The notes under the pieces: model-generated
What the model saw: only the letters and a program-made list of their open reading frames with translations
Databases searched by the model: none
Told to the model about the DNA's origin: nothing
Assembly: GCF_040958095.1 (NCBI RefSeq)
Contig: NC_091165.1
Location: 32,652,460 to 32,716,459 of the forward strand
DNA from: Procambarus clarkii
Lineage: Eukaryota > Arthropoda > Malacostraca > Decapoda > Cambaridae
Length of the DNA stretch: 64,000 bases
Direction of reading: 5' to 3'
Shown: positions 21,044-54,352 of the stretch, piece by piece
How the letters are laid out: each line of letters opens with the position of its first letter
Position numbering within the stretch: the stretch's first letter is position 1
Made by a program: the position numbers and the translations under genes

Positions 21044-21225
21044 TCATTCCAACAAGGGTAATTCTTGTGCTTGCATCAGTGTGTGGAGCTGCGGGTTGTC
21101 TGCCCGCATGAAGATAGTCACTCCGGACTGGTAAGCAGCTGGGATGGCCACATGGGATGTCAAATGTCTTCGCCCTTGAACCACCGGTGGAGCTGCCTGC
21201 TCCTTTAATACTCCAACCACCTGAC
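21044..21225 (-). CDS. Host gene, last coding exon (C-terminus, stop)
   Basis: On the minus strand an acceptor TTATTGTAG precedes the exon at 21225. The exon contributes two bases to a split Gly codon, then 59 codons and TGA at 21046-21044. The peptide runs Q-V-V-G-V-L-K-E-Q near its start, H-L-T-S-H-V-A-I-P-A-A-Y-Q-S-G-V-T-I-F-M-R in the middle and Q-A-Q-E-L-P-L-L-E at the end, with balanced composition and no repeat character. Its entry phase fits the donor of the exon at 35987. Known: conserved exon structure with in-phase splice sites is typical of real genes. Inferred: it is the last exon. The family is not recognised with certainty. Confidence 0.82.
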
Positions 21226-22082
21226 CTACAATAACAAATTAAACATTATAATTGCAATATTTAATTAAAATTTTAAAATAAAAAATGTATTTCTAAAACC
21301 ACACAATGCAAATTAAATATACACTATCACTCATCGCTATTATCTTCCCATACTATTAAAAGACTATAGGGACATTCCCTATACGAAGGCACCACCCTGC
21401 CACCCGACCACATCTAGAGTCAAGTGGCAGAACAGGGTCTTAGGTTAGATTAAGGTTTAATCATGGTGCATGTTAAGAATGGTGGTCCGGCCCAGAAGGG
21501 TATGAACCATTAGGTTCAATTCCTTCTTGAGACCTTAAAAAACTGGGACTTCCAGCAAAGACAAGAGGTTAACTCAACCACTCCAAAGTTCAACCGAGCT
21601 GTGATAACCAAACAGAGCTGCAGGGAGGACATCTGACCCAAGACTAATGAATTTGAAGCAGGGGCAGTGGACCAACACCACCAAAGAGGGAGGGGGCCAC
21701 GAGCTGGTAAAATGGTCCAGATGGCCAGCACCACAGGTACCATAACAAAGAATCCATGGGTCTTGACCCGAGGCTACACGAGGCCAACTAGGGCCAGTAT
21801 CAGGCATGAGACCTGACTGCCAAATCCTGTGCCCGAATATCGACCGAAACATATCAACAAAGCCGAGAGGGCGGCCAACTTATGAAAGGCATGGTTAAGC
21901 CTCAGCCTCAACACTGCAGACACCTTGAGAAACATGAGCCCTGGAACAGGGAACTAGGGAAACCAGAGCAACCAAGAGTCCACTGAAGCAAAGCTATGGC
22001 ATGAAGGTACAGTAGAGGCGAAGAGCTGCCACTGGGCGAAGAACATGATACACCCCCAGCTGAACCAACCAAGTATCCACCA
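21226..22082 (-). other. Host intron, proximal part, with dispersed-repeat DNA
   Basis: Intron sequence upstream of the last exon. From about 21500 it becomes the unidentified purine-biased repeat also seen at 23900-26800. The piggyBac-like element at 22087 splits this repeat. Confidence 0.45.
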
Positions 22083-23880
22083 TTAACCCTTAAACTGCGC
22101 ATGGCGTATATATACGCCCTGAGTAACATGTCCCATGGTGCGCATGGCGTATATATACGCCATAGGGTGCCAGGCCTGATTCAAATGGCCCGCGGCTACA
22201 CGGGGTTCACAGTAGCTTCCTCAGGGCTCTTGTAAACAGATGCCATTTTAAAAAAAAATCGTGGGCAATATTCTCAGGTGTGAGAGGCACAGTACTGTTG
22301 GAGCAACCAAGGCCGGCGCACGCAGCATGAGCGAACAGCATTGATGTTCAGCTTGTGACCACAGCATCGCCGAAAAATGTCAAAATAAATATATAATTGT
22401 TATTATTTAGCGATGACAATATTACAGATGACCAATGACTGTGATATAAATAACCAGGGTTGTGATAATAGCAGGATTGTTGTAATAATTAGCGCTGTGT
22501 GAGGAGTGATGCTGAGAGACGGAGGGAGACAGCATCGTTTACTGACTGTGTAATTACCTAAGTGTAGTTACAGGATGAGAGCTACGCTCGTGGAGTCCCG
22601 TCTTCCCAGCCAAAAATCCACAAGGGCCGTGACGAAGATTCGAACCTGCGTCCGGGAGCATCCCAGACACTGCCTTAATCCTCGTCACGGCCCTTGTGCC
22701 CACGGTGTGGGCACCTGTTATTGTTTGCGTTCACCATACCAGGTCAGTGGTTCTCTATGGTGAACACAAATGTAGATACTTATATATAATGTGTGTATTA
22801 GTGTAATAACAGCAAAAGGATTATGCTGGGAGGAGCCATATGGGTGACGGAGGTGACGTCGTCTGCACGATTTGTCTAGCTGTTTAGAGGGTGGCCACTA
22901 TGCTCTTTGGGCGCACTACAAGCTTAGGTGTACAGTTACGGTGCATAAAACATGTAGATATTTATATATAATATGTGTATATAGGGTAATAACACTGCAA
23001 AAGGTATTGTTGGGGGAGAAAGTTTAGTGCGTGTGACTTTGAAAGAGTAAGGGAGCCGCCAGCCGCCATCTGTGTATAGCGACGACTCTTAGTGCCTGAA
23101 CTAACTATATCAGCTTAGCTGTACAGTTGTGGTGAACAAAATATACACATACTTATATATAACGTCTGTATATAGTGTAATAACACCACAACTGGTATTG
23201 TTGGGGGAGAAAGTTTAGTGCGTGTGTTGAGGGAGTGGCAGCGAGTGGCTGGCTGGTGTGTGGCGTTAACTCCTCGTTGCTTTTCGACTCTCAATACCAA
23301 CTTAGTGGTTCGGTATGGTGACCAAAACATGCCAATACTTATATATAACCTGTGTATAGAGTGTAATAGCAGCAAAACTATTTGTTTATTGTTTTATAAA
23401 CATAATAATTGAATCACTAATATGCACATATTACTATTTATTAGTACTACCATATTACTTAGTAGTACCATATTACTTACAAAATATACTATTTTGAGTA
23501 TAGCGATTATTAACCACTTTTATTATATAAATATATTACAATACACACTATTGAATAATATTACTGCAAAAAAACTAAGAAAAAATCAATCGGAGACATT
23601 GAAACAATTAGGTAATAATATCTTTGTGGCAACTCCCATCTGTCAACGCGGGTGACGCTGACCGGGTCTGACGATCGCTCTGTCAACGCCCACTTTTTGC
23701 CAGACTTCCTCGTTCAATTGCGCCCAAAATATGTCACCTACGATTTTTTTTTTATTTTTTCCGTGCTCAGGGGACACAAATTAACATGTTTAGAAGACGA
23801 AAAAAAATTTTTGAATTTTTTTTTTTCTTGCGCACAGGGGTGTAAATGTCCATATGACCCCTGAGCAGTGTAAGGGTTAA
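22083..23880 (+). mobile_element. TTAA-flanked (piggyBac-like) element A with satellite core
   Basis: TTAA at 22083-22086 and 23877-23880 flank inverted ends CCCTTAAACTGC (22087-22098) and GCAGTGTAAGGG (23865-23876), 11 of 12 matching. Near the left end the 16-bp palindrome GGCGTATATATACGCC occurs twice, at 22103-22118 and 22146-22161. The interior (about 22700-23400) holds several ~190-240-bp units with ACTTATATATAA, GTGTAATAACA and a stretch resembling GAACCACTAAG in one orientation. No transposase is present, so it is non-autonomous. Related material lies at 36448-40140 (reverse) and 43220-43956 plus 50277-50716 (forward). Confidence 0.8.
22551..22697 (-). mobile_element. SINE family 2: LINE-A-like tail plus tRNA-like head in a hairpin
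   Basis: Bases 22551-22612 match the 3' end of LINE family A (TAATTACCTAAGTGTAG, then TTACAGGATGAGAGCTACGCTCG), also seen at 29175, 40143 and reversed near 56300. Directly next to it, on the minus strand, is a tRNA-like B box (seen as GATTCGAACC). The head is enclosed by a perfect 17-bp inverted repeat, CACAAGGGCCGTGACGA at 22620-22636 and its complement at 22681-22697. This can be read as a SINE whose tail is borrowed from LINE A. A chance junction of two fragments is the alternative. Confidence 0.6.
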
Positions 23881-26190
23881 AGGACTCCTTCAGAAGCAAA
23901 CTGACTCATTCTTCACCAGAAAAGAAGGATCCTGCTGTAAACAAAACGAACATCAGGGCCAAAAGAACAAAAACCCCGGCACCAAAGGAGACCATGAATT
24001 GCACCCACATGACAAATAGAAGAGAGAGCAAAAAGAGAGCCCTATTTTTTTGTAGAGAGCAAAAATCCAGAGCCCGAGAGCAATCACAGACCAAAAGGGG
24101 GACAGTAAAATGAGCAGAAGAAAGAAAAGAACACTGTTCAAAGACCAAGCAGGCTCAGGTAACTCATGAGCAGGCCACAGGTGAAACAGTGCCTGAGGAA
24201 GCCAACGAAATGGGTTCGAAGAAGTATCGACCTTGAAAGCAAGCTGCGGTGGCCCCACCAGCGCCGTATGATATGAGGTGAGAATATTCGGCATAAGATG
24301 CCAATCCAGAAAAAGCCAAGAAAGAAAAGACATGACAAACAAAACCAACACTGAAGAGGAACAATGAGATGGATTGATGGAAATCACACTATAAGACTTC
24401 ATACTGTCGCCAAGAGGACCACAGGTGGGACACCAACAAACCATCACTATAGAGATGGTGATAAACATGCATCCGAAACTTCAGATGCGAAGATTGGAGA
24501 AGGCAGAACCAGCAAGGTATGTCACCAGGCCAATTTTCAGAGGGGTAGCTGCAGGAAACCAGCCGGATTCAGATATCAAGCAAGCTGTGCCTGAAACCAA
24601 GGCCGGACTAGACACCAGAAAGCCAGAAGAACCACCCTCCCCCTTGTAGGACTCCAATTTTGCCAGGACTCAGGGCAAGAGCTGGGTCGGGAAAAACAGA
24701 GGTACAGAAACCCCCAAATTGGTCATTCCAGCCAAAAGGCATACACCACAAGAGCCTCGCAGTCGGGAAGTGGCGCCGCTTAAACAGGAAGGCTCTGTAA
24801 CCAAGCTGACACTAAGGTCCATGTCCGGGCACCGGAATGTCCGACAAAGCCAAAGGAAGGAGTTGGCACTGACGGTCTATTCTGTGGAGATAGGATGGAA
24901 CCGAGAAAGTCTCAGCCAAGATGTTGGACATTCCCTGAATGTGAATGGCCTGGAGAGCCAAACCCTGAGAAACCAGAAGACAAACTATATGTAGTGTAGT
25001 CTTCATGACTACAGAGACACAGAGATCTCAGAGACAAAGAACCACAGGGAGACAGTCTGAATGGAGTTGGGCCACTACATCCGGTTGGACCTGAACCCTA
25101 CGCAGTGCCTGCCACACTGCCACAATCTCCCACACAGTACTATTGGCCCGACGAAGGCAAGGAGACCATGGCTTCCGACCACCCTGATGAACACTGGTCA
25201 TAAAGCACTAACTGAGGTCAGAGGCATCTGAGATGTCGAGTGAGGGCTGAGGAAGGGGTCAGGGAACTGAACCCCAAAAAAACTCGAACATGGAAGCTGG
25301 CGATGGGTTTCCGGAGTTTGCACCCAGAGGTCGCAGCAGAAGACCTAGATCTGGTGAAACCAAAACAGCCTCTGAAGCCAAATCCTGCCCAAGGAAAAAT
25401 ACAAGGAGGGGAAAAGTTGAGGCATCCACACACATGCTCAAGCAACTGCTGAGTCACCAGACATCCACTCAACACTAACAGACAGTGGTGCTGCAGATGG
25501 GTCAAGGCCGCCATAAGGTAGGAACCGCGAAGCCGATCACGAGTCCCCAAACAAGGCCCAGCCAAGTCTGAACCTGAGATGGAACCAAATGGAACTTCCA
25601 CCAGTTCACCAGAAACCCGAACCTGGCGAGCTGAGAAAGAACCAGATCCCTGGCGTCAGACAAGCAGACTAGCTGGGAGCCCACACCAGCCAAACATCGA
25701 GGCAGGCCAGAACCTGAACACCAAGAAAATGAAGATGGATCACAACAACCCGGGCCAAGCTTGTAAAAATGCAAAGAGCCAAATAGAGCCTAAACAGGAT
25801 GACCCAAAAACCATAAGGCTGTCGCTCCACAATAAAGCCTAACCAATCCCTGAACCTGGGATATACCGGGACGTGCTAGTACGCATCCTGGAGGTCCCAG
25901 GGAAATCATCGATGCATGTGCCTCAAGAATGAAACAGACCTGGGACAACTTGTTTATCCGAAAGGAGGAGCAAGGAATGAACCGGTTCAACCCAGACTGG
26001 TCAAGGATGAACCAGAGATCTGGAGAATCCCTTTTTTGGACTGGAAACAGGTGGGAACTCACTGAAGATAAGGGGTTGTTTCGACCACACCTGAAGACAC
26101 TCACTCAAGGATGACCCAACAAAGACAAGGATTCTGTCTGGAAAGACCAGACATAATACTGGAAAGTCTGGAAAGACCAGACAAGCCCTG
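23881..26190. repeat. Unidentified dispersed-repeat DNA in the host intron
   Basis: Purine-biased sequence with many short open frames on both strands and none with a domain. It appears to continue the repeat interrupted by element A at 22083 and shares style and short words with 6196-7260, 33590-34140 and 62200-62880. The short motif TCTGGAAAGACCAGA is repeated at about 26137, 26167 and 26491. Confidence 0.4.
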
Positions 26191-26490
26191 CAGTACGTTA
26201 CCAATGTAACGTACGATTATGTTACTTTTTGGGTAGATTAGATACATAGTGTTTAGTGAGTTTCATATTTATTTAGTAATTCTGGACACAGCAGTCTCGT
26301 AGACGTTGAGACGGAGCTTGGAGCAGAGCAGAGAGCTGAGTGAGGCCAGAGTCGCGGAGCTCTATGTGGGAGAGTGTTGTAGCTGGATGCGGTCCTAGTC
26401 TGCTGTCTGTTCTGTGTCGAAGCTATAGCGTCTTGGAGACGATTAGAACTGCCTACACCGAGTGCTACATTCTTGACTGGAAATTGTACT
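26191..26490. repeat. LTR-like or regulatory repeat shared with 62985-63340
   Basis: This segment (GTAACGTACGATTATGTTAC, then a TTTAGTGAG...ATATTTATTTAGTA block, then GAG-rich text and GAGTGCTACATTCTTG) parallels 62985-63340 in motif order. It is bordered on both sides by TCTGGAAAGACCAGA, compatible with an insertion flanked by a repeat. Solo LTR is one possible reading. No protein is encoded. Confidence 0.4.
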
Positions 26491-27180
26491 GTCTGGAAAG
26501 ACCAGAATCCTCAAAGGAAGAGGGACTGACCAACTTCACCACGGGCTACACAAAGTCACGGGACCAGGCATTGGCAAACCGCACGAGCCTCACCCACACT
26601 GCCCCGCCAAAGGGGTGAACAAAGAAAGGGTCGGTGCAAAGTACTCGAACCAGACATGACAGGCGTGAGCACAACTCCCAACCGGACGAAGAAGAACTGG
26701 CCAAAGGAGGCGCATATGGCTCAGAAATTGGCCCACCCTGACTAACTGAAGATGCTGTCCAAGCCCTGCAGTAGCCACAGAACAGAAGAACCGTTCCACA
26801 ACCTCCTATGGACACAACAATGGAGAAAAAGGAGAGGTGGAAAAAGCACATGCCAATTCCAAAGAGGAATTGGCATATGCCCTATATTTTCATAAACCAT
26901 ATTGAACCCCAAAGTAATTCTGGTGTGTAGGGTAATGAAATATTAGCACAGTATTGAGCTACATGCTATAACCAACTGACTTTATCTGGAGTAGGAAAAT
27001 ACCCAAAAATATACATACATCGCTATTGTATAATACACGATAACGCTATATATAAACATATCAAAATCCTGCCACTAAATCACGAATATGAATAATTTTC
27101 AGTAAGATTATTTTATAAAGGAACATAAGGTCACGTTGTATGATGCGTAGATTCACAAAACTCAGCTGTGTGCCGTAACG
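26491..27180. other. No gene recognised
   Basis: A further part of the dispersed repeat up to about 26870, then AT-rich unique-looking intron DNA. Confidence 0.35.
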
Positions 27181-27244
27181 TCTGGCTCCTGCTGTGATCA
27201 TCATAACTAGTAATGTGTTCACTGATATCTGAACCTTCCTTTGC

Positions 27245-27770
27245 GGTGATTCCGGGGGTCTAGTTCCTCGCAGCCCAGTTTGACCAGGCCTCCTTGTACA
27301 TAGTTTTATTAGCCATGATCATCTGCTGCTTGATGGGGTTCTGGGAGTTCTTCCACTCTCCAAGCCCGGCCTGAGGCCAGGCTTGACATGTGAGAGTTTG
27401 GTCCACCAGGCTGTTGCTTAGAGCGGCCCGGAGGCCCACATACCCACCACAGCCCGGCTGATCCGGAACTTCTCTTAGAAAACAGTCCAGTTTTCTCTTG
27501 AAGATGTCCACGGTTGTTCCGGCAATATTTCTTATAGTCGCTAGGACGACGTTGAACAACTGCGGACCTCTGATGCTTATACAGTGTTCTCTGATTGTGC
27601 CTATGGCACCTCTGCTCTTCACTGGTTCAATTTTGCATTTTCTTCCATATCGTTCACTCCAGTATGTTGTTATTTTACTGTGTAGATTTGGGACCTGGCC
27701 CTTCAGTATTTTCCATGTGTATCTATGATGCATTTTTTTCATGTGCATCTATGACACTCTTTGAAAAATA
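27245..27770 (-). pseudogene. LINE family D, C-terminal fragment
   Basis: A minus-strand frame of 162 aa (27748-27260) contains Y-T-W-K-I-L-K-G-Q, I-R-G-P-Q-L-F-N-V-V, I-F-K-R-K-L-D-C-F-L and P-D-Q-P-G-C-G-G-Y-V-G-L-R-A-A-L-S-N-S-L-V-D-Q. It matches LINE D at 10300-10770. Only the end of ORF2 and its tail are present, so it is 5'-truncated. It lies in the same orientation as the host gene within its last intron. Confidence 0.85.
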
Positions 27771-27836
27771 ATTGAAGCTACTTATTTAATTCATCATTAT
27801 TAAGTAGCACTGTGCTGTGGCCCCCCTATCTTGTTC

Positions 27837-28225
27837 AGCTGTGCTGTGAGCTGCAGCTGCATACACGGTGCTGTGAGCTGCAGCTGTATGCACAGTGCTG
27901 TGAGCTGCAGCTGCATGCACGGTGCTGTGAGCTGCAGCTGCATGAATGGTGCTGTGAGCTGCAGCTGCATGCACGGTGCTGTGAGCTGCAGCTGCATGCA
28001 CAGTGCTGTGAGCTGCAGCTGCATGCACTGTGCTGTGAGCTGCAGCTGCATGCACGGTGCTGTGAGTTGCAGCTGCATGCACGGTGCTGTGAGCTGCAGC
28101 TGCATGCACGGTGCTGTGAGCTGTATGCACAGTGCTGTGAGCTGTATGCACGGTGCTGTGAGCTGCTGCTGCATGCACGGTGCTGTGAGCTGCAGCTGCA
28201 TGCACGGTGCTGTGAGCTGCCAAAC
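27837..28225. repeat. 27-bp minisatellite array 1
   Basis: About 14 units of CACGGTGCTGTGAGCTGCAGCTGCATG with point variants and a few shortened units near 28118-28160. Each unit contains the self-complementary GAGCTGCAGCTGC. As 27 is divisible by three, several frames on both strands are open and encode 9-residue repeats such as (A-H-S-T-V-H-A-A-A)n. These are not taken as genes. Confidence 0.95.
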
Positions 28226-28560
28226 TCTCACTAGCTCTCTATGACAACACAAACGTATCACGGCTGATAACATCAGTAACACACCCCCCGTGATACAATT
28301 GGGTAGCCTGTCCGAGAGCACCTTACATATTGAGCAGCCTGATCGAAAGCCTAATAAAAGTGGATAGCCTGTAGATGTAACCTGATATAAAAATTGTGTA
28401 GCTTATTTTTTTTTTACTTTAACTTGTGTAGAAATTTAGAATAATTTTAATATTGGTATAATATGAATATGTACTTCATAACTTATTTATGTACATTTTA
28501 TTAATCTTTATGAAAAGTGTTTTAAGAATTTTTGTGCGTGTTCTCGAGTGCAAAAAATTT
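28226..28560. other. Spacer between the two minisatellite arrays
   Basis: AT-rich sequence with a loosely repeated GTAGCCTG word at about 28302-28375. No gene seen. Confidence 0.5.
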
Positions 28561-28757
28561 ATGCATGGTGCTGTGAGCTGCAGCTGCATGCACGGTGCTG
28601 TGAGCTGCAGCTGCATGCACGGTGCTGTGAGCTGCAGCTGCATACACAGTGCTGTGAGCTGCAGCTGCATGCACAGTGCTGAGAGCTGCAGCTGCATGCA
28701 CGGTGCTGAGAGCTGCAGCTGCATGCATGGTGCTGTGAGCTGCAGCTGCATGCACCA
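28561..28757. repeat. 27-bp minisatellite array 2
   Basis: Seven units of the same 27-bp repeat as at 27837-28225 in the same orientation, with GAGAGC variants in two units. The separation by a 335-bp non-repeat segment implies either an insertion into one array or a duplicated array. Confidence 0.95.
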
Positions 28758-28948
28758 GCCTTAATTGCTCTGGCAGTACTGATGTTCTCACAGTCAGTAG
28801 TGAAGCAAATTTTTTTTTCAAGATGGCATCTGTTTACGGAGTCTTGAGGAACAGGATGTGAGCCCCGTGTGCCAGTGGCAGTTTGGAGTCTCATCATCTA
28901 CAGTACTAACTAAATTAAAATGTACGGCAGCATACCCACTTTCCCCAT

Positions 28949-28974
28949 GTTGTTGTTGTTGTTGTTGTTGTTGT
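28949..28974. repeat. (GTT)n microsatellite
   Basis: Eight or more tandem GTT trinucleotides. Confidence 0.95.
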
Positions 28975-29079
28975 AGATTCAGCTACTCAGAACAAAAAGC
29001 TCCAAGTAACACAGGCTATGGTGAGCCCATAGTCGACTTACCAGGCACATGAATGGGGCTGTAATGCACTCGCGTGTGT

Positions 29080-29176
29080 GCATGTGTACTTACCGAGTTG
29101 TGCTTGCAGGGGTTGAGCACTGGCTCTTTGGTCCCGCCTCTCAACCGTCAATCAACTGTGTGTGTGTGTGTGTGTA
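29080..29176 (-). mobile_element. LINE family B tail fragment and (GT)n
   Basis: On the minus strand 29090-29155 matches the tail of LINE B seen at 54600-54690 and 35256-35340 (GTTGAGAGGCGGGACCAAAG; AGCACAAC...). A (GT)n run follows at 29157-29174 and adjoins the 3' end of LINE A. Confidence 0.7.
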
Positions 29177-32100
29177 ATTACCTAAGTGTAGTTACAGGAT
29201 GAGAGCTACGTTCGTGGTGTCCCTTCTACCCAGCACTCTTGTTATATAACGCTTTGAAACTACTGATGGTTTTGGCCTCCACCACCTTCTCACTTAACTT
29301 GTTCCAACCGTCTACCACTCTGTTTGCGAAAGTGAATTTTCATATATTTCTTCGGCATCTTTGTTTAATCAGTTTAAATATATGACCTCTTGTTCTTGAA
29401 GTTCCAGGTCTCTGGAAATCTTCCCTGTCGATTTTATAAATTCCTGTTACTACAGTATTTTGTACGTAGTGATCATATCACCTATTTTTCTTGTCTTCTA
29501 GTTTTTGCATATTTAATGCCTCTAACCTATCCTCGTAGCTCTTGCCCTTCAGTTCTGGGAGCCACTTAGTAGCATGACTTTGCACCTTTTCCAGTTTGTT
29601 GATGTGCTTCTTAAGATATGGGCACCACACAACCGCTGCATATTATGGCTTTGGCCTAACAAAAGTCAAAACAATTTCTTTAGTATTTCGCTATCCATGT
29701 ATTTAAGAGCAATTCTGAATTTAGAAAGCGTGGCATAGGCTCCTCGCACAACGTTCTTTATGTGGTCCTCAGGTGATAGTTTTCTATTTAGAACCACCCC
29801 TAGATCTCTTTCTTTATCAGAATTCTTTAAAGATTTCTCACTTAACACTTTCGCGCTCTCGGCGTTCAAAAAAAAAGCATACCCTAGATGCTTTCGGCGC
29901 TTCGCGCGCCTACGCAGTAAGACCGAAAAAGTGTACACTCTTTTGACTGTCCTGATAATAATTGAAGGCGCACGTATTTATATTTGGTATCACTGTGTTC
30001 GCAATAAAATTGTCTATAAGAACATATCTATAAAATGCCGCCAAACCATAAGGATTATCAACACCAAATAAAAAACTATTCAGATCACTAGCCGAGAGCG
30101 CCAAACAGCAACAAAATGTTTCCACTCTCTTAATGGTTGCGAAGCCTACAGTTGTCCTACATCGCTAATTGTGGTATCATTGGAATCGCAATAAAATTCT
30201 CTACACGGACATATGCATATAAATATAGATTCAATGTCGTAGCCCACCCAAAACAGTGTGGGAAGTGGCCGAAGTGTTACCCGCGGCGGCATATCGGCGA
30301 AACTCGCTTTGAAAAGTGTATATTCAATTCACTGTCCTGACATTATTTGTCGATGTATGTATTTCATTTTTGTACCAATGTGCTCGCAATAGAATGTTCT
30401 ATAAAAACATAAGTATTAAAGGTCACATAAGGATGCGTTCGACCGGCAACATATATAAAAACTACGTCGATTACACTCATCGTGTCAATAATACAATTGT
30501 TTTACCACAATGATTCACTGCCACGCCGTTTTCTTTTATAGGCTGTTCGGCTATTAGAGAAAACGTAAATTTCATGGCAAACATTTGTAAACTATTCCCA
30601 AGTTGATCGGATAATAAATGGATTTTATACAAATATTTTTACTCGTGACTCCCGCGAGGGGCACGAGTGCGGTGTGTTTAATAATATTGGTGCCGACGCA
30701 GGTCTGCTGGAAAGCGCCAAAGTGTTAATTTATAGGTTGTGTGAGGTCTATGTTCTCCTATTCCACATTTCATAACATGGCATTTATTAACATTAAATTC
30801 CATTTGCCAAGTGGTGCTCCATATACTTATTTTGTCCAGGTCATCTTGAAGGGCATGACAATCATCTAAGTTTCTTATCCTTCCTTTTATCTTAGCATCA
30901 TCAGCAAACATGTTCATATAATTCTGTATACCAACTGGTAGATCATTTATGTAGACAATAAACATCACTGGTGCAAGAACTGAACCCTATGGTACTCCAC
31001 TTGTGACATTTCTCCAGTCCGATACAGTGCCTCTGATCACTGCCCTCATTTTTCTATCAGTCAGAAAATTTTTCATCCATGTTAGAAGCTTACTTGTCAC
31101 CCCTCCAATATTTTCCAGTTTCCAGAACAACCTCTATGTGGAACTCTGTCGAAAGCTTTTTTTAGGTCCAGATAGATGCAGTCAACCCAACCATCTCTTT
31201 CCTGTAAAATCTCTGTGGTTCGATCATAGAAACTGAGTAAATTCGATACACAGGATCTTCCAGATCAAAAACCATACTGTCTGTCTGATATTATATCATT
31301 TCTCTCCAGGTGTTCTACCCATTTAGTTTTGATTATTTTTTCCAATATTTTGACTATTACACTTGTCAATGATACAGGTCTATAATTGAGGGGGTCTTCC
31401 CTGCTGTCACTTTTGTAGATTGGAACTATGTTAGCCTTTTACCACACAACAGCTACGACTCCTGTACACTGGAATGCCTGATACATCAGTTGAAGTGGAA
31501 TGCTGAGCTCAAGTGAACACTCTCTCAGAACCCATGGTGAAACTCTATTTGGACCAACTGCTTTGTTCTTACTTAGCTCCAGAAGCATTTGTTTCACTTT
31601 CTCTAGACACCTCTATGTGCTCTGTTGTTCTATGGAATTCTTATTGTGTCTGGTTTCCTGAAGATTTCATTTTGTACAAACACACTTCGGAACTTTTCGT
31701 TTAATTTTTCACACATTTCCTTTTCATTTTCTGTGAATCTATTTCCCATTTTCAACCTCTGAATATTATCCTTTACCTGCAATTTGTTGTTTATGAATTT
31801 GTAGAATAGGCCCGGTTCTGTTTTACATTTGTCCGCTATTCCTTTTTTCAAAATTTCTTTCTGCCTCTCTCCTAACTGCCGTGTAGTTGTTTTTTGCAGC
31901 TTTGAATCGCTGAAATATTTGGGGGTTTGGCCTCTTCTATATATATTGATTCCATTTTTGTGTCTTTTGGTCTCTGGCCCTCTCGCAATTTCTGTTGAAC
32001 TAATCCTGTTTCCTAGTTCTATATCTCTGCTTTGGTATAAATTTTGTTGTACCTTTATCATATATGTCACAAAACTTGACATACATCTCATTTACTTCAT

Positions 32101-34145: not shown

Positions 34146-34149
34146 CTAC

Positions 34150-35222: not shown

Positions 35223-35249
35223 ACTGTCACCTTCCTTCAAATGATTGCA

Positions 35250-43956: not shown

Positions 43957-44046
43957 GTCACCATACAAGTAAGTAATTATCAAAAGAAGGCACCAAACCG
44001 GGAAGGCTATGTAGCACCATCAAATACGCAAAATAATCAGAGGGCG

Positions 44047-47000
44047 CTAAATATCACCAAGGATGCCAATACGAGAACAAAAACGCATAAGGCGAACGAT
44101 ATCAAAAGTATCCGAGTCACCAAGAATTCTATCGAGGGACAGGTGACCGCGAGGGGCGGTCGGAAAGCAAGACACACGCTCGTCCTGGAAGTCAGGACAT
44201 TCAAGAAGGACATGCACGACCGTAAGAGGGACAATGCAACTAGGACAATAAGGAGCAGGGCGGCGCTCCATCAAGTGACCATGGGTTAAGCGAGTATGGC
44301 CAATACGCAACCTCGCCAGAGCTGTTTCCCACCGCCGGTTACGGTGGAAGGAGGACGGCCACGAGGAAACACAACATTTAAGAGTACGTAGCTTGTTACC
44401 AGTAACAGACAACCAAGAAGCCTGCCAACGGGTAAGGACTGAGGAATGGATAACCGGGTAAAAGTCGGAATACGGAATGCCTTTACGAGAGATGGGACAA
44501 GAGCGGACAGCTTCCTTAGCGGCAGCATCCGCACGCTCATTTAAAGACACGCCAATATGGCTGGGAACCCAACAAAACTCAACCGACTTAAATTTACTGT
44601 GAACGAGAAACAGCCAATGCTGGATCTCGACAACTACTGGATGAACTGGATTAAAGCACCCGAGAGCCATGAGGGCACTACGAGAGTCAACAACAACCAC
44701 AAAGGAAGACTGACAACGAGAAAGCAGGAGACGAAGAGCATAGAGAATAGCATAAAGTTCCGCTGTAAAGATGCTAGTCTCCGGAGGCAAGCGACACATA
44801 TAAGTGCAATCAGGAAAAACAACAGAGTAGCCAACACCGTCCGCTGACTTAGACCCATCGGTGAAGACAGAAACGGAGCGCGAGTGAGAAGAAAAGTGCT
44901 CGAGGAAAAGGCGTTTTAGCACCGTAGGAGGGGTAAAAGCTTTAGTGATACGAGTCAAGGATGTACAAAACCGCGGAAGAGGGACCCTCCACGGGGGCAA
45001 AGAAGGAACAACACGAGGAGAAACATCAGAAATACGAACGGAAAGAGAATCCTGTAGGCGAGATAACCGGACAGAAAGAGGGAGGTGGTGAAGAGGAACA
45101 GGAACCGCAGGAGGGGTAAAAGTTAAAGCACGACAGAGGCGAGAGGAAGGATGTTGCAAGGACCGCGCAAGATAGCGAAGACAGTAGCGATCACGGCGGT
45201 CCTGGAGAGACAGGAAGCCAGTGTCAACATACAAGCTAAGGACGGGAGTCGAACGAAAGGCACCAGAACTGAGGCGCAACCCAGTATGGTGCAAAGCATC
45301 AAGACGGCGAAGAGTAGAAGGAGAAGCAGACGAGTAAGCAGGGCAACCATAATCGAGCTTAGACAGGACGAGAGAGGAATGTAAAGCAAGGAGAGTGCGC
45401 CTATCTGCCCCCCAAGAAGTATGGGACAAGACCCGAAGGAGGGTAAGGGCCTTAGAGCACTCAACACGGAGGTAAGAGATATGGGGAGACCAAGACAAAC
45501 GAGTGTCAAGGAATAACCCCAAAAGCTTCGCGGAATCTTTGTATTCAAGGGGATGACCATAAAGTGACAAAGAGGGACGAAGAACAACCCGTTTCCGCGT
45601 AAAAGTCATGGCACAAGTCTTAGAAGTAGAGAACTTGAAGCCATGATCGGTGGCCCAAGACGACACGGCATCAATTGCAAGTTGAAGCCGGCGTTGAAGG
45701 AGAGGCGAATCATCACCCTGACAACAAAGGGTAAGATCATCGACATAGAGAGCGGAGAAGACACCAGAAGGAAGAGAGGAAAGAAGACCATTGAGGGCAA
45801 CCAGAAAAAGAGTAGTGCTCAGAACACTACCCTGGGGCACACCTTCGTATTGCTGAAAAGAGGGAGACAGAGCGGTACCAAGGCGCACCCGAAAGGAACG
45901 ACGAGAGAGGAAGCTGCGGAGAAAGAGAGGGAGATGACCACGAAGGCCAAAAGAATGAAGTTGAGATAGGATATGATAACGCCAAGTGGTGTCATAAGCC
46001 TTTTCTAGGTCAAAAAGGACGGCAACAACGGAGGTCTTTGCAGCAAAAGCAGTACGAATATAGACCTCCAAGTTCACCAGGACATCTGTCGTGCTGCGGC
46101 ACTTGCGGAAACCAAATTGAGAAGGGGAGAGGAGGTGATGGTGTTCCAGGAACCACATCAGACGAACGTTAACCATACGTTCAAAGAGTTTGCAGACACA
46201 ACTTGTGAGAGCAATAGGGCGAAAGTCCTTAGGGGAAGTACCCAGAGACCCCGGTTTGCGAACAGGGAGGACAACGGCATCGAGCCAGTCCTCAGGGACT
46301 GACGACGACTCCCAGATCCGATTATACAGACTCAGTAAATACTGAGACGTGCTCGGAGGGAGATGGCGAAGCATCTCATAATGAATACCATCGGAGCCCG
46401 CCGCCGTAGAACCGCAGAGGGCCAGGGCAGAACGAAGTTCAGAGAGAGAGAAGGGATCATTATAGGGAAGCTGAAGATGAGTGCAGAAATCTAAAGGACG
46501 AGACTCAAGGACAGGTTTACGAAGAAGGAAAGATTGGGGAAGATGAAGACCAGAGCTAACAGAAGAAAAGTGGGAACCCAGTTCGGAAGCGACCTGCAAC
46601 GGGTCCGCCACAAGAGTATCATGGAGGTGAAGGACCGGTGAAACATCGGGAACGAACTTACCCGCTATCTTGCGGATACGCTTCCAGATCTGGGCCAGAG
46701 GGGTTTCGGACGTAATTGTCGAGACATAAGATGCCCAACATTCACGTTTAGCCGTACGGATGGCCCTACGGGCCACCGCACTCGCTTTCCGAAAGAAAAG
46801 AAAAGAATCGGTCGTCTGCCTACGGCGGTGCTTCTTCCAGGCTGCACGCTTACAGCGGACAGCCCGAGCACAGTCCGCATTCCACCAGGGAACGCACTTC
46901 CGTGGACCCCGAGAGGAAGAGCGAGGAATAGAGCGGAGGGCAGCGTCGAAGACAGTGTCATGAAAAAGGAGGAGAGCGCGAGAGAGGGGCAGAAGGGAGA

Positions 47001-47775
47001 GGTCAGAGAGAGTAGCACTGAGGGAAAATAGGGTCCAGTCCGCCTTAGCAAACTGCCACCTAGGGAAAGAGAGGGAAGGGCGAAAAGAGAAAAAGGAAAC
47101 AAGGATGGGGAAATGATCACTTCCATGGAGGTCATCAAGAACCTGCCACGTGAAATCTAAGTAAAGAGAAGAAGAGCAGAGAGAAAGATCAAGACAAGAA
47201 AGGGTGCGAGTTCGAGAGTCCAAATGAGTGGGCTCACCAGAATTCAGAAGAGACAGGGAAGAAGAGAGGAGAAACGGCTCAAGGAGGCGACCCCGGGTAT
47301 TCGTCAGAACGTCACCCCAAAGAGAATGACGACAATTGAAGTCACCCAGCAGGAGCACAGGCTCCGGCAAGGAGTCTAGGAGGTGTTTCAAATCAGGAAG
47401 AGAGAGCGGGACACTCGGGGGGAGATAAATGGAACAAACTGTGTACCATTTCCCCACAAAGATACGAGCAGCAGAACAATGGAGAGGCGAAGGAAAAAGT
47501 AAAGGAACAAAGGAAACATCAGCCCGAATCAAGAGAGCAGAAGAATTAGAAGCCCCAGCAATGGCTGGGGGGGGGGGGGAGAGAAAGGAATAGCCACGAA
47601 AACGACCAGGACGAGCACCAAGCATTGGCTCCTGGAGACAGACACAAAGGGGCGAAAACCGCGAAACCAGAAGTTGGAGTTCGAGGAAATTGGCGTAATA
47701 ACCTCGAACATTCCATTGAAGAATGGACAACGACGAGAAGAGAAAGGACAAAAACAGAGAACAAGGAAGAAACAA
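44047..47775 (-). CDS. LINE ORF2 protein: AP endonuclease, reverse transcriptase, RNase H
   Basis: A 1242-aa uninterrupted frame. Endonuclease ~16-230: I-L-Q-W-N-V-R-G (Asn22), L-Q-E-P (Glu49), G-D-F-N (144-147), C-L-D-L (194-197) and G-S-D-H (218-221). Reverse transcriptase ~495-770: D-F-R-P-I-A-L-T (517-524), F-D-L-E-K-A-Y-D (588-595), G-V-P-Q-G-S-V (645-651) and the catalytic Y-V-D-D (677-680). RNase H ~965-1090: F-T-D-G-S-K (Asp973), T-A-E-L-Y-A (Glu1006), V-V-D-S-R (Asp1030), S-H-I-G (His1073) and R-A-D-A (Asp1083). A C-terminal Cys/His motif C-P-S-C...V-H-V-L-L-E-C-P closes it. All expected active-site residues are present. Role: nicks target DNA and copies the element RNA (target-primed reverse transcription). 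The start codon is the first ATG after ORF1; initiation may be by re-initiation. Confidence 0.96.
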   Translation of the reverse strand: MFLPCSLFLSFLFSSLSILQWNVRGYYANFLELQLLVSRFSPLCVCLQEPMLGARPGRFRGYSFLSPPPPAIAGASNSSALLIRADVSFVPLLFPSPLHCSAARIFVGKWYTVCSIYLPPSVPLSLPDLKHLLDSLPEPVLLLGDFNCRHSLWGDVLTNTRGRLLEPFLLSSSLSLLNSGEPTHLDSRTRTLSCLDLSLCSSSLYLDFTWQVLDDLHGSDHFPILVSFFSFRPSLSFPRWQFAKADWTLFSLSATLSDLSLLPLSRALLLFHDTVFDAALRSIPRSSSRGPRKCVPWWNADCARAVRCKRAAWKKHRRRQTTDSFLFFRKASAVARRAIRTAKRECWASYVSTITSETPLAQIWKRIRKIAGKFVPDVSPVLHLHDTLVADPLQVASELGSHFSSVSSGLHLPQSFLLRKPVLESRPLDFCTHLQLPYNDPFSLSELRSALALCGSTAAGSDGIHYEMLRHLPPSTSQYLLSLYNRIWESSSVPEDWLDAVVLPVRKPGSLGTSPKDFRPIALTSCVCKLFERMVNVRLMWFLEHHHLLSPSQFGFRKCRSTTDVLVNLEVYIRTAFAAKTSVVAVLFDLEKAYDTTWRYHILSQLHSFGLRGHLPLFLRSFLSRRSFRVRLGTALSPSFQQYEGVPQGSVLSTTLFLVALNGLLSSLPSGVFSALYVDDLTLCCQGDDSPLLQRRLQLAIDAVSSWATDHGFKFSTSKTCAMTFTRKRVVLRPSLSLYGHPLEYKDSAKLLGLFLDTRLSWSPHISYLRVECSKALTLLRVLSHTSWGADRRTLLALHSSLVLSKLDYGCPAYSSASPSTLRRLDALHHTGLRLSSGAFRSTPVLSLYVDTGFLSLQDRRDRYCLRYLARSLQHPSSRLCRALTFTPPAVPVPLHHLPLSVRLSRLQDSLSVRISDVSPRVVPSLPPWRVPLPRFCTSLTRITKAFTPPTVLKRLFLEHFSSHSRSVSVFTDGSKSADGVGYSVVFPDCTYMCRLPPETSIFTAELYAILYALRLLLSRCQSSFVVVVDSRSALMALGCFNPVHPVVVEIQHWLFLVHSKFKSVEFCWVPSHIGVSLNERADAAAKEAVRSCPISRKGIPYSDFYPVIHSSVLTRWQASWLSVTGNKLRTLKCCVSSWPSSFHRNRRWETALARLRIGHTRLTHGHLMERRPAPYCPSCIVPLTVVHVLLECPDFQDERVSCFPTAPRGHLSLDRILGDSDTFDIVRLMRFCSRIGILGDI

Positions 47776-47798
47776 AGGCGAAAGACCAACAGAGCACG

Positions 47799-49745
47799 TT
47801 AAAGAATATCAGGGTCGGGATCAGGGTCAGCAAAGTCAGGGTTAGGGGGCATGGGTAAACTGAGCAAAGACGGAGGGAAGGAAACGGGAGAACAGATCAG
47901 AGGTGGGCGGGCAGGGTCCGGAGGAGGAGGAGGAGGAGGAGGAGGAGACAACGGAGAGGAGCAGTCAAGGACAGCAGCAGGAAGAGGGGGAGTAGAAAGA
48001 GAGGAGCGCACCCCAGCAAGAGCAGCAACCGAAAGGGAAGCAGGGGCCAAAGAAACCTCCATAGCAGGAACAGGGGGCGCAAGCACTGAAACGGGAGGGG
48101 AAGGAGCAACAGAGCCAGGAGGAGCTGAGGAAGAAAGCGAAGCCTTCTTACCCGCCGGGGAAGAGGAAGGAGAGGAGCCAGGCTTACGCTTCTGACTTAA
48201 AGAGACCGGTGTCCCAGCAACTACGTACCGGGCAACGGATTCCAGTGTCTCAACCGGAGAAGCCGAACGAGAGCACACACGACGGCCGGTAGGAGAGCGA
48301 TGGACATCCGCCCGCACCGACAGGCGGTGGGGAGAGCTGACAGATGGAGGAAGAGGATGGGAAGGAGGACCGGAGGGGGACGAGGAAGAAGACACAGAAG
48401 ACACGACAGACCGGGTAGAAGGAAGGGGAACCCCAGACAGAGGACCAGGAGGAGGATCCTTCGGGAGAGAACCCGAAGGAACAGAGGAGGGGGCAGTGGG
48501 CGCATCAGGGTCCAAGGCCCGGAAACGGTTGTGAGTCTGAGGAAGGCGGGAAGGACGAGGAGAGGAAGAGCGCAACACGCGAGCATAAGAGATATTAGCA
48601 TAAGGCGGGAGCCGGCGAACCTGGCGCCTCGCCTCAGGAAAAGATAAACGCTCCCGGTGCTTCAGGTTGAGGACGGCTGCCTCAAGCTTGTAATGGACAC
48701 ACGCACGGGAGAAGGTAGGATGGGCCTCACCGCAGTTGAGGCAACGAGCCTGGGGAGAAGTGCACTCCGACTTAGAGTGACCTTCGCCACCACACAAAGG
48801 ACAGAGAGAGACAGTCCCGGAGCAGCGGAGGGCACCATGCCCAAACCTCCAGCACTTGTTGCAGAGCCGAGGAGAAGGAATGTACTCCTGGACAGAGCAC
48901 CTGGCACCAGCAAGAATGACAGAGGGTGGAAGGGTCCTACCATCAAAGGTAATCTTCACAACCCGGAGGGGTTGACGGCGACTACCACGAGGGGGACGAG
49001 TAAACGTGTCCACCTGGAGAATAGAATGGCCCTGGGCAGCGAGGATATGTCGAATATCATCGTGGCAGTCGCTCAGGTCCCGAACACCGGTTGCAACATG
49101 GGGCGGGAGCAAAATAATGCCAACACTGGCATTCAACTGAGCGTTTTTCGAGACCCGAACGGGGGTCTCGCCAAGGCAGGACAAGGCAGCCAAGCGGGAA
49201 GCAGCATCCTGAGAAGGAGCAGCAACGACACGTGTACCGAGACGAGTGGGGTTGAAAGTAATGGAGGCATCCACGGAATCAATGAGATGTCGATGAAGGG
49301 AGAAATCGTCAGGAGGCGCAGAATCAAGAGGGAGGAGATCAAAATATTTGGCCCACGAAGCGGGACCAAACAAGGCTTGATAGGTAGCAGAACTGGAAGG
49401 AATCGAGCGAGGGCGGCCGTGACGAGGACGGCGGTGAGAACCCCCAGAGAGAGAGGGGTTAAAAGGCGCAGTAGTTACAACTAGAGAAGGAGCCGCGCCA
49501 GGGGACGAGGTAGTCACCACTGGGGGCTTGGGGCTCGACCCAACCACAGAGGAGGGAAGGGAGCCAGGGGAAGGAGTCAGAGAGGCCAAAGGAGGAGCAA
49601 GGTCGGGGCCCAATGTAGCGGAGGCTACAGAGCCCGGTCTTCCAATACGGACCGACCCGGGGGCTTGGTCGCCCACCCCACGAGCCTGAGAAGGGAAGCC
49701 AGAAGCAGCCGAAACAGGGGTTTTCATCGTGACGAAAAGAAACAT
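47799..49745 (-). CDS. LINE ORF1 protein: nucleic-acid-binding, triple CCHC
   Basis: A 648-aa uninterrupted frame. The N-terminal ~120 residues are rich in Gly, Pro and Ser. A folded central region (~125-290) includes W-A-K-Y-F-D-L-L-P-L and V-V-K-I-T-F-D-G-R. Three zinc knuckles follow: C295-N-K-C...H303...C308, C315-P-L-C...H323...C328, and C335-L-N-C...H342...C349 (variant spacing in the third). The C-terminal ~250 residues are Pro/Ser-rich and low in complexity. Retrotransposon gag-like ORF1 proteins of this layout bind element RNA and form the particle with ORF2p. The ATG at 49745 was chosen as the first in frame; a second Met is six codons later. A matching but broken ORF1 is at 13322-15160. 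Confidence 0.92.
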   Translation of the reverse strand: MFLFVTMKTPVSAASGFPSQARGVGDQAPGSVRIGRPGSVASATLGPDLAPPLASLTPSPGSLPSSVVGSSPKPPVVTTSSPGAAPSLVVTTAPFNPSLSGGSHRRPRHGRPRSIPSSSATYQALFGPASWAKYFDLLPLDSAPPDDFSLHRHLIDSVDASITFNPTRLGTRVVAAPSQDAASRLAALSCLGETPVRVSKNAQLNASVGIILLPPHVATGVRDLSDCHDDIRHILAAQGHSILQVDTFTRPPRGSRRQPLRVVKITFDGRTLPPSVILAGARCSVQEYIPSPRLCNKCWRFGHGALRCSGTVSLCPLCGGEGHSKSECTSPQARCLNCGEAHPTFSRACVHYKLEAAVLNLKHRERLSFPEARRQVRRLPPYANISYARVLRSSSPRPSRLPQTHNRFRALDPDAPTAPSSVPSGSLPKDPPPGPLSGVPLPSTRSVVSSVSSSSSPSGPPSHPLPPSVSSPHRLSVRADVHRSPTGRRVCSRSASPVETLESVARYVVAGTPVSLSQKRKPGSSPSSSPAGKKASLSSSAPPGSVAPSPPVSVLAPPVPAMEVSLAPASLSVAALAGVRSSLSTPPLPAAVLDCSSPLSPPPPPPPPPDPARPPLICSPVSFPPSLLSLPMPPNPDFADPDPDPDIL

Positions 49746-50276
49746 TCACTCACGAATGTGCCCCCACACCCACCATGGAGCCACAATTAGAGGCAGGACA
49801 CCCAACAAGAAGCTATCGCCGATCTTGTCGGGGCCTCCTAGGGGTGCGTCGTGAGTATACGCCCCACAAACGCCACCTTAAGAAACCGACAGTCTGTCGA
49901 GATCGGGTTCAGTGACGAAGTGGGGATTGACAATAAAAGGTTCCCCTCGCTCTCGACGTCGGGTACTGCAGTTCTACGGGTGCATGAGTATGCCTCCTCA
50001 AGCACCCGGGCGTCAAAATAGAAGAAGTCCATGGAAGAACCAGAACGAGCAAAAGGTCGGCAGGAAACGGCAAGCAGATAGGAGAAGAGGGGGGAGAAAA
50101 ACGAAACAGAAGGAAAAGGAAAAGGTGCCCAGCAGAATTGGAGAGGACGGCAGCAGGAGCACAAGGCTAGAAAAGGACAGAGGACTGTCCGAAGGAGCAT
50201 CACACTCCGGCAGCCGCCCACGAAGCCCCCACACGGCGACAACGAGCTGAGCGGGGAGGGGGCGTCACCATACAAG

Positions 50277-50716
50277 ATTAGTGGTTCGCTATGGGGAACA
50301 CAAATGTAGATACTTATATATAACCAGTGTATATAGTGTAATAACCGACAAGGTATTTGTTCACTGTTTTATGAATATAATAACTGAATCAATAATTTGC
50401 ACACCATAATTTTCAATACAGTGATGATTCACACATTGTATTATATAAATATATCACACAACACACTATTGAATAATATTACAGCAAAAAAAAAGGAACA
50501 AATCAATCATTGACATTGAAATAATTAGGTAATTATATCTTTGTGGCAACCTGCTGCCTGACAGCTGGGGCGAAGCAGAACTTCCCGATGCTTGCCGAGT
50601 CAGCGCCTCTTTTTTTTTTTTTTTTGCCAGACTTCCCTGACTTATTGCCGCCAAAATATGTCACTTACGATTTTTTTTATTATTTTTCCCATGAACAGGG
50701 AACACAAATTAACAGG
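50277..50716 (+). mobile_element. Satellite element C, right part
   Basis: This continues the unit cut by the LINE insertion (GATTAGTGGTTCGCTATGG, ACTTATATATAACC, GTGTATATAGTGTAATAAC) and then the right end as in element A (ATTAGGTAATTATATCTTTG, CCAAAATATGTCAC, GATTTTTTTTATT). The expected TTAA terminus is missing because another TTAA element starts at 50717. Confidence 0.7.
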
Positions 50717-51021
50717 TTAACACTATCGGTCACCTTGGACCTGACTCGCGTCCATTATTTTTATCTTGAATCCTAACTTTGGACTGGACTTATGTCCAAA
50801 ACAAAAATATTTGTATAAAATTCATTTTTCATCCAATCGACTTGGGGATACTTTCAAAATGAGCGCCATAAAATTCCCGTTCTCCTTGATAGGCCTACTG
50901 GCTGCGTGGTGCTTCGGCACAAGGTGGCGACCTCATATTTTGTTGACATCGCTTGTGACTGGATTGTTGTCCCCTAGCGTCCCCAACTCGTGCGGTTTTT
51001 TGCGTTTATTTCGCTTCGTGT

Positions 51022-51327
51022 GTGTTCTCCAACCTTTATATACATTCAACGATGGCAATGTGGGCCCTATTAAGGTGGGACACTGAGGAATGGCCTATCA
51101 CAACAGACACCATTCCACGCGCTCTGGATCTAAATGCTGACGCCAGTACTGCTGATGCTGCAAATCTGTCAACGCCGGGACCATCTGGCGTGAGGCGGCC
51201 TTTATTCGCTGCACACCACGAACCTTCCTCATCTGACTCTGAACTCGAGGCAGATGACCTAGACGCAACAGGTGTTGCAGGAAACGTAGCACCAGGTCGT
51301 TTATTTAGCACAGAAACTTTTATTTAG
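51022..51327 (+). pseudogene. Short acidic ORF, possible transposase N-terminal remnant
   Basis: A 101-aa frame (second Met at 51052) with W-A-L-L-R-W-D-T-E-E-W, T-P-G-P-S-G-V and an acidic S-S-S-D-S-E-L-E-A-D-D-L-D patch. Acidic N-terminal regions are common in piggyBac-type transposases, and the frame lies in a TTAA-type element. No catalytic domain follows, so identity is tentative. Confidence 0.3.
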
Positions 51328-52330
51328 TTTTGTGTAAGTAATTAATTACAATGTATATACATATACTGTTGGTAGACCCATACGTATCCTTCATATGGGG
51401 ATAATATTATGTTTTCCTTGTAGAGCGTTTTATTGCGAAAAAAATGATACCAAAATGTAGACCCAAAAATAGCTTTATAAAAAAATAAACTCCTTTATGT
51501 GTTTATTGGGTGTACCGGGTGTAAAGGGGGTGGGAATGGGTGGACTCTAGCGGGTAAAGCACCCGCGACTTTATATGCGGTTGCGGGTGGGGCGCCCACA
51601 TGTTTTGATATTGATATGCATATGTCCGTGTAGAGAATTTTATTGCGATCACAGTGATACCAGAATCAACGTGATAGATCATGATTTGACTTGACAAACA
51701 TGATAACAGCAACAACGTATCCACAATGTTTAGCGCGCACGGCTAACAAGCGACTTCGCTTTTTATTTGGTACGGGTCTCACAAATGCTTTAGTGACATT
51801 TTATATGTATGTTTCTCTAGAACATTCTATTGCAAACACAATGATACCAAATAGAAACACATGCATCAATAAATAAGGTCACAACACTGAAAAGATTATA
51901 CACTTTTCAGTAGTCGCGAACATGCTGTGCTGTAGGTCGCGCGGTAACGGGTAACTCTTCCCTGACTTCCCACATCTGGCGGGTGGGGGTGGATCACGAA
52001 TAGGACTTGATATTCGTATGTCCGTATACGGAATTTTATAGCGATTCCATTGATACCTAAAAAATGATATAGGACAATTCTGGAGGTGACTACCCTAAAA
52101 ATAGTAAAAACATTTCATCGCTGTTTTGTGCGCGCGGCTAATGAGCGACTTAGTTTTTTATTTGGTACGGGTCTCACGAATGCTTTAGTGACATTTTATA
52201 TGTATGTTTCTCTAGAACATTCTATTGCGAACACAATGATACCAAATAGAAACCCATACATCAATAAATAAGGTCACAACACTGAAAAGAGTATACACTT
52301 TTCAGTGTTGCCGCTTGAGTGCCCAACACT

Positions 52331-52371
52331 CAAGTGGCCTTGACACTTTCCCCAAGTGTCAAGGCCACTTG
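52331..52371. repeat. Perfect 18-bp hairpin
   Basis: CAAGTGGCCTTGACACTT (52331-52348) and its exact complement (52354-52371) flank a 5-base loop. It lies next to a smaller hairpin CTTGAGTGCCCAACACTCAAG. It is probably part of a TTAA-type element and is not followed by a T run. Confidence 0.9.
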
Positions 52372-52630
52372 GGGAAAGTTTCACGGCTGAGTGCCGGTGC
52401 GCGATAATGCAGGAACATTTTTTTTTTGTGCCCCCGTGGGTGACAAATGCCAAATTGCCCTTAGCAACACAAGAGTTAAAAACCTTCTATAAATTCAGTT
52501 TCTGTTCAATTATCAGAATTTTTACATATTTTGTGTAAAGTGGTTTGTTCTACATTCTGGATGTTTAGTTTTGTCCGTAAACCCCAAACATTGGAGTTAT
52601 ACGTTGTTGTGCCTATTTCTGGCGTTTATT

Positions 52631-53150
52631 TTAACACTATCGGTAACTTTGGACCGGACTCACGTCCATTATTTTTCTCCCGAGTCCTAACTTTGAACCG
52701 GACTTGCGTCCACTACAAAAAATATTTGTATAAAATTCATTTTTTATCCAATCGACCTCGGGATAGTATCAAAATAAGCAGCTTTAGAATGTGCACAATT
52801 TGATACCAAAATGAAAGATGTAACATGAAACTTGATGTCCGAACACTTATATGATTATAAATAGGCTTTTGGTCAAAATTTTAAAATATTTGTTAAAATT
52901 CTATTTATTATGCTACCATGTTGGGACTAGTTTTAAAATGCGCGCCTTTACGTCGTGAACAATTTGATACCCAAATGAAAGATGCAACACAAAAATTTAT
53001 GCCAGAACACTGGAAAGATATAAATAATTTTGTGATGATGAGCTTCCAGAATTAAAATATTTGTTAAAATTCCAGTTATTGCTCTATTATTATGGGACTA
53101 GTTTTAAAATACGCCCCTTTTTATTGCGAACAATTGACATGATATATATC
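52631..53150 (+). mobile_element. Second TTAA-type element relic with ~170-bp repeats
   Basis: It starts TTAA CACTATCGGTAACTTTGG at 52631, as at 50717. From about 52720 to 53145 a ~170-bp unit is repeated about two and a half times (ATATTTGTTAAAATTC, GGGACTAGTTTTAAAATGCG, GAACAATTTGATACCAAAATG, then GAAAGATGCAACA). Similar units in reverse orientation end the window at 63880-64000. The right end is not defined. Confidence 0.55.
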
Positions 53151-53414
53151 TACCTCATTACATACACAAAATTATATAGTGAGGTGTGTGTGTATGTTTT
53201 TTGAAGTATTATTACCCATTTTTGGTAAACCAGCTTAGGTGACCTTTGATTGTCAACAACAGATGGCAGCATTTACCAGGTCTGAGTGCCTGTTTCGACA
53301 GTCTGAAGAGCTGGCTCAGCATTACAACATCTGGATGATGTCTCATCATAGCTCAACTTTACCTAATGATGTGAAAACTTAAAAAGGTGAACTGTAAATA
53401 TGAACTCAACTCAC
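53151..53414 (-). other. Host intron downstream of exon 53658-53415
   Basis: Intron starting with a consensus donor GTGAGT at 53414-53409 on the minus strand. No other feature recognised. Confidence 0.5.
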
Positions 53415-53658
53415 CTCTATTGATCCACTGGGCAAGCCATCGGGAGAGCTGTACAGCTCGCTTGGGAAACATATGGAAGAACTTGGCTTTAATAGCACCT
53501 TGTGAAAGATGTATAACTCCATTTATTAGGTCTTTGTGCGTGGTACCAGCAACACAGCGGGAAAACAGATAATCCACGACGAGCGCAGCCTCTGCTCGTA
53601 ACCGTGTCTGGATGCTCTTCTGAACTTCCTCCACAGTATAAGGCTGATCTAAAGCCAA
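53415..53658 (-). CDS. Host gene, upstream visible coding exon
   Basis: On the minus strand an acceptor CTTTTCATCAACAG precedes 53658 and the consensus donor AGAG|GTGAGT follows at 53415. The 244-bp exon begins in phase 0 and ends one base into a Gly codon, which the next exon (36271) completes. It encodes [25 protein letters not shown], a helix with F-F-H-M-F-P-K-R, and [10 protein letters not shown] at its end. Codon-level continuity over 17 kb of intron supports a real gene. The start could lie slightly upstream, as the frame stays open. No catalytic Cys can be assigned, and earlier exons are outside the window or unrecognised. Confidence 0.83.

Positions 53659-53800: not shown

Positions 53801-54352
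<552 letters not shown>

Follow-up and report, generated by a model that had tools for sequence, protein, structure and literature searches.

The bacterial C39 domain, typified by that of the PCAT/AMS transporters (LahT150; PF03412) and by Peptidase_C39_2 (PF13529), presents its active-site residues in the order Gln-Cys-His-Asp/Asn. In the LahT C39 peptidase these residues are Gln21, Cys27, His101, and Asp117, which places the Gln at position -6 relative to the Cys and the Asp 16 residues after the His; Gln21 lies 4.3 Å from an oxygen, its oxyanion role being credited to earlier work (PMC6363468). In papain-like proteins, the core helix always carries the Cys at its N terminus, and the human proteins grouped as cluster I include calpains, cathepsins, ATG4, BLMH, ZUP1, BIVM, GUCD1, C19orf54/ACTMAP, and UFSP2 (PMC10318531). 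Here, a locus from the decapod Procambarus clarkii is compared with these systems. It occupies a stretch of 64,000 nucleotides of contig NC_091165.1 (positions 32,652,460 to 32,716,459), referred to below as the window, whose minus strand carries what look like the final exons of a host gene that, judged from sequence, probably encodes a papain-like cysteine peptidase of C39-like type.

Three minus-strand exons, designated A, B, and C and numbered in window positions, make up the part of the gene that lies within the window. Exon A (53658-53415; 244 nt, coding) has an acceptor in phase 0 and a donor in phase 1, and its protein ends in WLAQWINR plus one base. Exon B (36271-35987; 285 nt, coding), in phase 1 at both ends, reads (G)GVPLATLNLQ...DAWHHQMIFGVGPQGVYLTNP...NVL plus one base and would supply the catalytic His and Asn. 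Exon C (21225-21044; 182 nt), the last coding exon, is entered in phase 1 and reads QVVGVLKEQ...QELPLLE before a TGA stop. Joined, the three give 236 residues and the TGA without an internal stop, both junctions cutting a codon after its first base (phase 1/1). A preliminary description of this DNA had reported these exons, and its coordinates, strand, phases, stop, and succession of PDAWHHQM and then YLTNP were all reproduced. Its characterization of the splice sites as consensus was too strong. Exon A is flanked by CATCAACAG on its acceptor side and by GTGAGT on its donor side, exon B likewise by TTTTGTTGTAG and GTATAG, and exon C, which ends with the TGA itself, has GTTATTGTAG ahead of it. 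Under a weight matrix that we built for generic metazoan splice sites, the acceptors of A, B, and C reach 3.9, 7.7, and 4.9 and the donor of exon A (53415) reaches 7.2, but the term is untrue for the exon B donor (TTG/GTATAG) because its score is -2.5.

At E ≤ 0.001, each of these exons has a single place in the genome. When the 236 residues were searched in six frames against the entire assembly (4,027,284,227 bases in 2308 contigs), six candidates were scored, of which the three kept at E ≤ 0.001 were each exon once, at its own place and without stops; no second or intronless copy of the window exons was reported genome-wide at that threshold. With one genomic place per exon, they therefore look like host coding sequence rather than repeat, and A, B, and C look like the end exons of a real host gene that has a single place in the assembly.

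The preliminary description had further proposed that the catalytic Cys lies upstream of the window. The minus strand of the same contig was scanned for exons over the 200 kb past the window edge (pieces L001-L020), with window-extended coordinates continuing the window numbering past 64,000. A candidate exon containing a Cys is found on this strand at window-extended 65218-65075 (L001:1218-1075), 1,075 bases past the edge, in phase 0/0 and with the sequence ASEGEGGGEESCPRVKKVMIWTELQASARQVTQIATSACGATAIINVL. It reads QIATSACGATAIINVL and joins exon A in frame, and together with A, B, and C it gives 284 residues without an internal stop. The proposal thus stands insofar as a phase-compatible exon with a Cys is present, but its splicing to exon A is predicted only. 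After removal of candidates more than 60% repeated, this exon ranks third by score among 14 non-overlapping candidates in 53660-91139 and is one of 4 in phase 0/0. From motif, phase, coding score, and nearness taken jointly, we infer that it belongs to the gene, which very probably begins upstream of 53658 and would include this exon and two further candidates upstream.

In the numbering of the 284 joined residues, the putative active site comprises Gln33 (window-extended 65122-65120), proposed to line the oxyanion hole; Cys39 (window-extended 65104-65102), the proposed nucleophile; His154-His155 (36200-36195), one of which is the proposed general base; and Asn170 of LTNP (36152-36150), the proposed third member of the triad, all of these codons being on the minus strand. 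The Gln is at -6 of the Cys, 115/116 residues separate the Cys from the His pair, and 16/15 residues separate His154/His155 from Asn170, so that a His followed by an Asn at a spacing fitting papain-like proteins is present. The Gln and Cys expected of such proteins are present (QIATSACGATAIINVLLAL) in the candidate exon, whose splicing to exon A and helical structure are predictions.

Compared with the bacterial C39 domains, the residue order is the same, as are the position of the Gln and the 16 (or 15) residues from the His to the acid or amide of LahT. The differences are that 115/116 residues lie between Cys and His here and 74 in LahT, that Asn replaces the Asp of LahT, and that the present gene is eukaryotic and predicted to be spliced, has no ABC (ATP-binding cassette) transporter part that could be seen, and matches neither of the two family profiles. 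Under the preferred reading, the catalytic domain would be formed by the last ~280 residues of the protein. Cys39, opening the first helix, would attack the amide bond of the substrate and be activated by His154 or His155, which would open a core strand; Asn170, immediately followed by a Pro on the next strand, would orient the His, and Gln33 would contribute to the oxyanion hole. Exon A would prolong the helix begun by the Cys exon. Relative to LahT, the Cys-His stretch would be longer by ~40 residues, and 114 residues would follow the Asn.

The animal papain-like proteins offer a second set of comparisons. To our knowledge, none of the cluster I human proteins carries the motif of this protein, and no paper carrying AWHHQM or YLTNPLE was found in the literature text searched. 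By eye, GHYILLIG...VYYRNP of GUCD1, an animal papain-like protein of the Guanylate_cyc_2 family (PF09778), resembles HHQMIFGV...VYLTNP of exon B. A GUCD1-type exon is present in the same genome (L024, G000:C67:21630381-21630614; PF09778 at E 7.9e-39; PF13529 at 24.5 bits, cut-off 24), and it differs from the present gene in its separate locus and in the 18 residues, rather than 16/15, between its His and Asn. Identity with GUCD1 was rejected, as that exon is on a different contig and has a match to PF09778, a family that the protein described here does not match at E ≤ 10. Another early candidate, BIVM (Q86UB2), was the first lead and was dropped for its presumably different motifs around the Cys and the His; orthology to it is doubted. 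BIVM was counted in 2023 as one of seven human papain-like domains in no Pfam family, and it is not among the three described as lacking potential catalytic sites (PMC10318531). ACTMAP (C19orf54), the actin maturation protease, is an animal papain-like cysteine protease placed in cluster I with BIVM and GUCD1 (PMC10318531), and actin processing requires it (PMC13367750). The protein described here differs from ACTMAP in being without any Pfam family match. It is presumably also unlike ACTMAP in sequence, and orthology between the two is doubted.

A number of results weigh against assignment to a C39-like peptidase, most of them from searches for relatives. The 284 residues match 0 Pfam families at E ≤ 10, and neither Peptidase_C39 (PF03412) nor Peptidase_C39_2 (PF13529) gives a profile match to these residues or, at E ≤ 1, to the 236. 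The check that the preliminary description had itself suggested, comparison of the joined exons with C39-like Pfam profiles, thus returned no such family. NCBIfam gave 0 matches, as did PDB sequences at E ≤ 10, and BLASTP of the protein against the crayfish's own GUCD1 exon found no similarity. Collections of viral and prokaryotic sequence, which include no animal genomes as such, gave 2 and 9 stretches, respectively, that fit a peptide pattern, none of which was confirmed as a relative; the WHHQM...TNP DNA pattern occurred 0 times in both. These negatives, obtained without an animal proteome, do not bear on orthologues in other animals. When exon B alone was modeled without an alignment, the mean pLDDT (predicted local distance difference test) was 41.1, too low for the model to be trusted; in it, a strand at 25-32 begins at the second His (residue 25), and a strand at 35-38 ends just before Thr-Asn-Pro 39-41, a placement that for its part favors the preferred reading. 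The gene model has weaknesses of its own, including the poor exon B donor and the lack of AATAAA or ATTAAA within ~1 kb past the stop, the closest AATAAA being at 19607, 1.4 kb beyond it. The earlier proposal of a C39-type fold is partly supported: the position of the Gln and the His-to-Asn spacing fit C39, but the fold is unproven and no C39 profile matches. The only PHROG match, a weak one to phrog_966 (E 0.003 over 24 residues of a 59-position family of unknown function), was taken for chance. A search of the genome with PF13529 at E ≤ 1 gave two other places, both below the cut-off and neither of them this gene. A weak PF13529 match of 21.8 bits, below the cut-off, lies at L025 (G000:C24:47354735-47354902) inside an open reading frame (ORF) that looks by eye like an adenain-type protease; other ORFs lie beside it, an arrangement reminiscent of Polinton-like elements.

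Other readings of the exons were also weighed. The idea that A, B, and C belong to a decayed pseudogene or to a mobile element, to which the retroelement and transposase ORFs spread over the surrounding tens of kb lend some color, is very hard to sustain against three open frames with matching phases, each found in a single place in 4.03 Gb and with no intronless copy reported (E ≤ 0.001), and against the 0 Pfam families, transposon families included, found for the 236 residues at E ≤ 1. A less remote alternative, still unlikely, accepts A, B, and C as one gene and takes the Cys exon for a chance open stretch, the true upstream exon being elsewhere and the domain perhaps not papain-like at all. 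The absence of any profile match to the joined protein agrees with this alternative, as do the splice sites of the Cys exon (CAAATTCAATAG/ and TTG/GTTAGT), both weak, with acceptor and donor scores of 1.6 and 0.9. The motif alone is also weak evidence: open segments in phase 0/0 carry QxxxxxCG[PAVSTN] once in the region, and in the rest of the 264 kb it turns up at two places on the minus strand and one on the plus strand, its chance expectation being ~0.2-0.4 per 37.5 kb. With a scorer trained without the Cys exon, three phase 0/0 candidates in the real region exceed 17, namely 83736-83455 (20.3), 65218-65075 (17.5), and 71505-71206 (17.5), but none does so in any of 60 dinucleotide shuffles. 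The complement strand and the reversed sequence each contain 1 such candidate, and these are the fairer controls because shuffles hold no decayed repeats; the threshold of 17, moreover, was chosen after the Cys exon score (17.3) was known. Against a chance origin is also the repeat content within the 264 kb, which at 13-mers and 15-mers is 0% and 21% for the Cys exon, in contrast to 86% and 96% for the higher-scoring 83736-83455; for the candidate at 71206, it is 0% at both. The candidate 83736-83455 was rejected for this repetition and because by eye it looks like reverse transcriptase. Finally, the helix of the Cys box would continue smoothly over the junction of the Cys exon and exon A.

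Even if the Cys exon is truly part of the gene and the fold is papain-like, the domain might be a catalytically dead relative that serves for binding or as a scaffold. Inactive animal papain-like proteins do exist, including TINAG, androglobin, C2D2A, C2D2B, and vertnin (PMC10318531), but here all four expected residues (Cys, His, Asn, and the Gln ahead of the Cys) occur at the spacings of C39, and a dead domain seems improbable. An active papain-like peptidase of C39-like type stays the preferred reading. Its function would at best guess be the limited cleavage of one specific cellular protein, by analogy with ACTMAP.

Further upstream, two additional exon candidates on the minus strand have phases that suit one another as well as the Cys exon. 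The candidate at 71505-71206 (L001; a second AG would make it begin at 71475) is in phase 0/0, and that at 92839-91140 (L003:8839-7140), 1700 nt in length with an acceptor in phase 1 and a donor in phase 0, is acidic, of low complexity, and without a Pfam match at E ≤ 1. The two are probably N-terminal exons, and they would probably add to the peptidase a long acidic low-complexity region, with one exon of 1700 bases. Under this reading, the gene spans at least 44 kb and probably 72 kb. No ATG-bearing first exon was found, the candidates upstream of 92839 including ORFs that resemble reverse transcriptase, Piwi exons, and unclear ORFs of short length. Two Piwi-domain exons on the minus strand at L017:8624-9163 (window-extended 232624-233163; E 6.7e-14 and 5e-23) point to a neighboring Argonaute-type gene, and L018:8998-9164 appears by eye to be a further Argonaute-like exon. 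A minus-strand ORF at L016:6592-7044 (window-extended 220592-221044) has a strong coding score and reads ...DFPGLELYSANDERVVGVAICALEAAGQFDISQIVTPRKHQVELVPML....

The predicted introns between the coding exons are long, and two of them hold mobile-element ORFs. Intron A-B (36272-53414, 17.1 kb) contains two minus-strand ORFs recognized by Pfam, one for endonuclease, reverse transcriptase, and RNase H (44047-47808) and one for a CENP-B_N / HTH_Tnp_Tc5 / DDE_1 transposase (41258-42121); a minus-strand ORF at 41020-41487 overlaps the latter and looks like its continuation in another frame. Intron B-C (21226-35986) measures 14.8 kb, and the proposed intron between the Cys exon and exon A, 11.4 kb in total with 53659-64000 inside the window, contains a plus-strand reverse transcriptase ORF (59702-61267). 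Nine long ORFs of the window, chosen from 33 listed ORFs of at least 150 residues, were scanned with Pfam at E ≤ 0.001. Mobile-element families were found in five (134-610, 16571-17533, 41258-42121, 44047-47808, and 59702-61267), and no family was matched by the other four (47799-49745, 9318-10097, 55585-56277, and 57985-58629). Among these four, the minus-strand ORF 47799-49745 (648 residues) lies immediately upstream of 44047-47808, shows CCHC-like Cys/His stretches by eye, and looks like ORF1 of the same non-LTR (non-long terminal repeat) element. On the plus strand at ~13277-18872, ORF pieces resemble by eye the type of 47799-49745, and the segment 27776-28402 is tandem-repeat-like, so that each of its two strands carries long open frames (CCELQLHAR / TAPCMQLQL repeats).

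The locus illustrates how a gene could be hidden when exons of 144-285 bases are separated by introns of 11-17 kb. A more tentative possibility than the peptidase assignment itself is that it represents an intact animal peptidase family with a C39-like active site, outside the 2025 Pfam-A and, as far as is known, outside the cluster I human proteins of the 2023 classification, that may act as a dedicated processing peptidase with its own substrate in the manner of ACTMAP. The weight of the finding would rise if orthologues keep the four residues. Animal genomes are known to hold few C39-like peptidases, and one more with a full set of active-site residues would therefore be a candidate for another dedicated maturation step.

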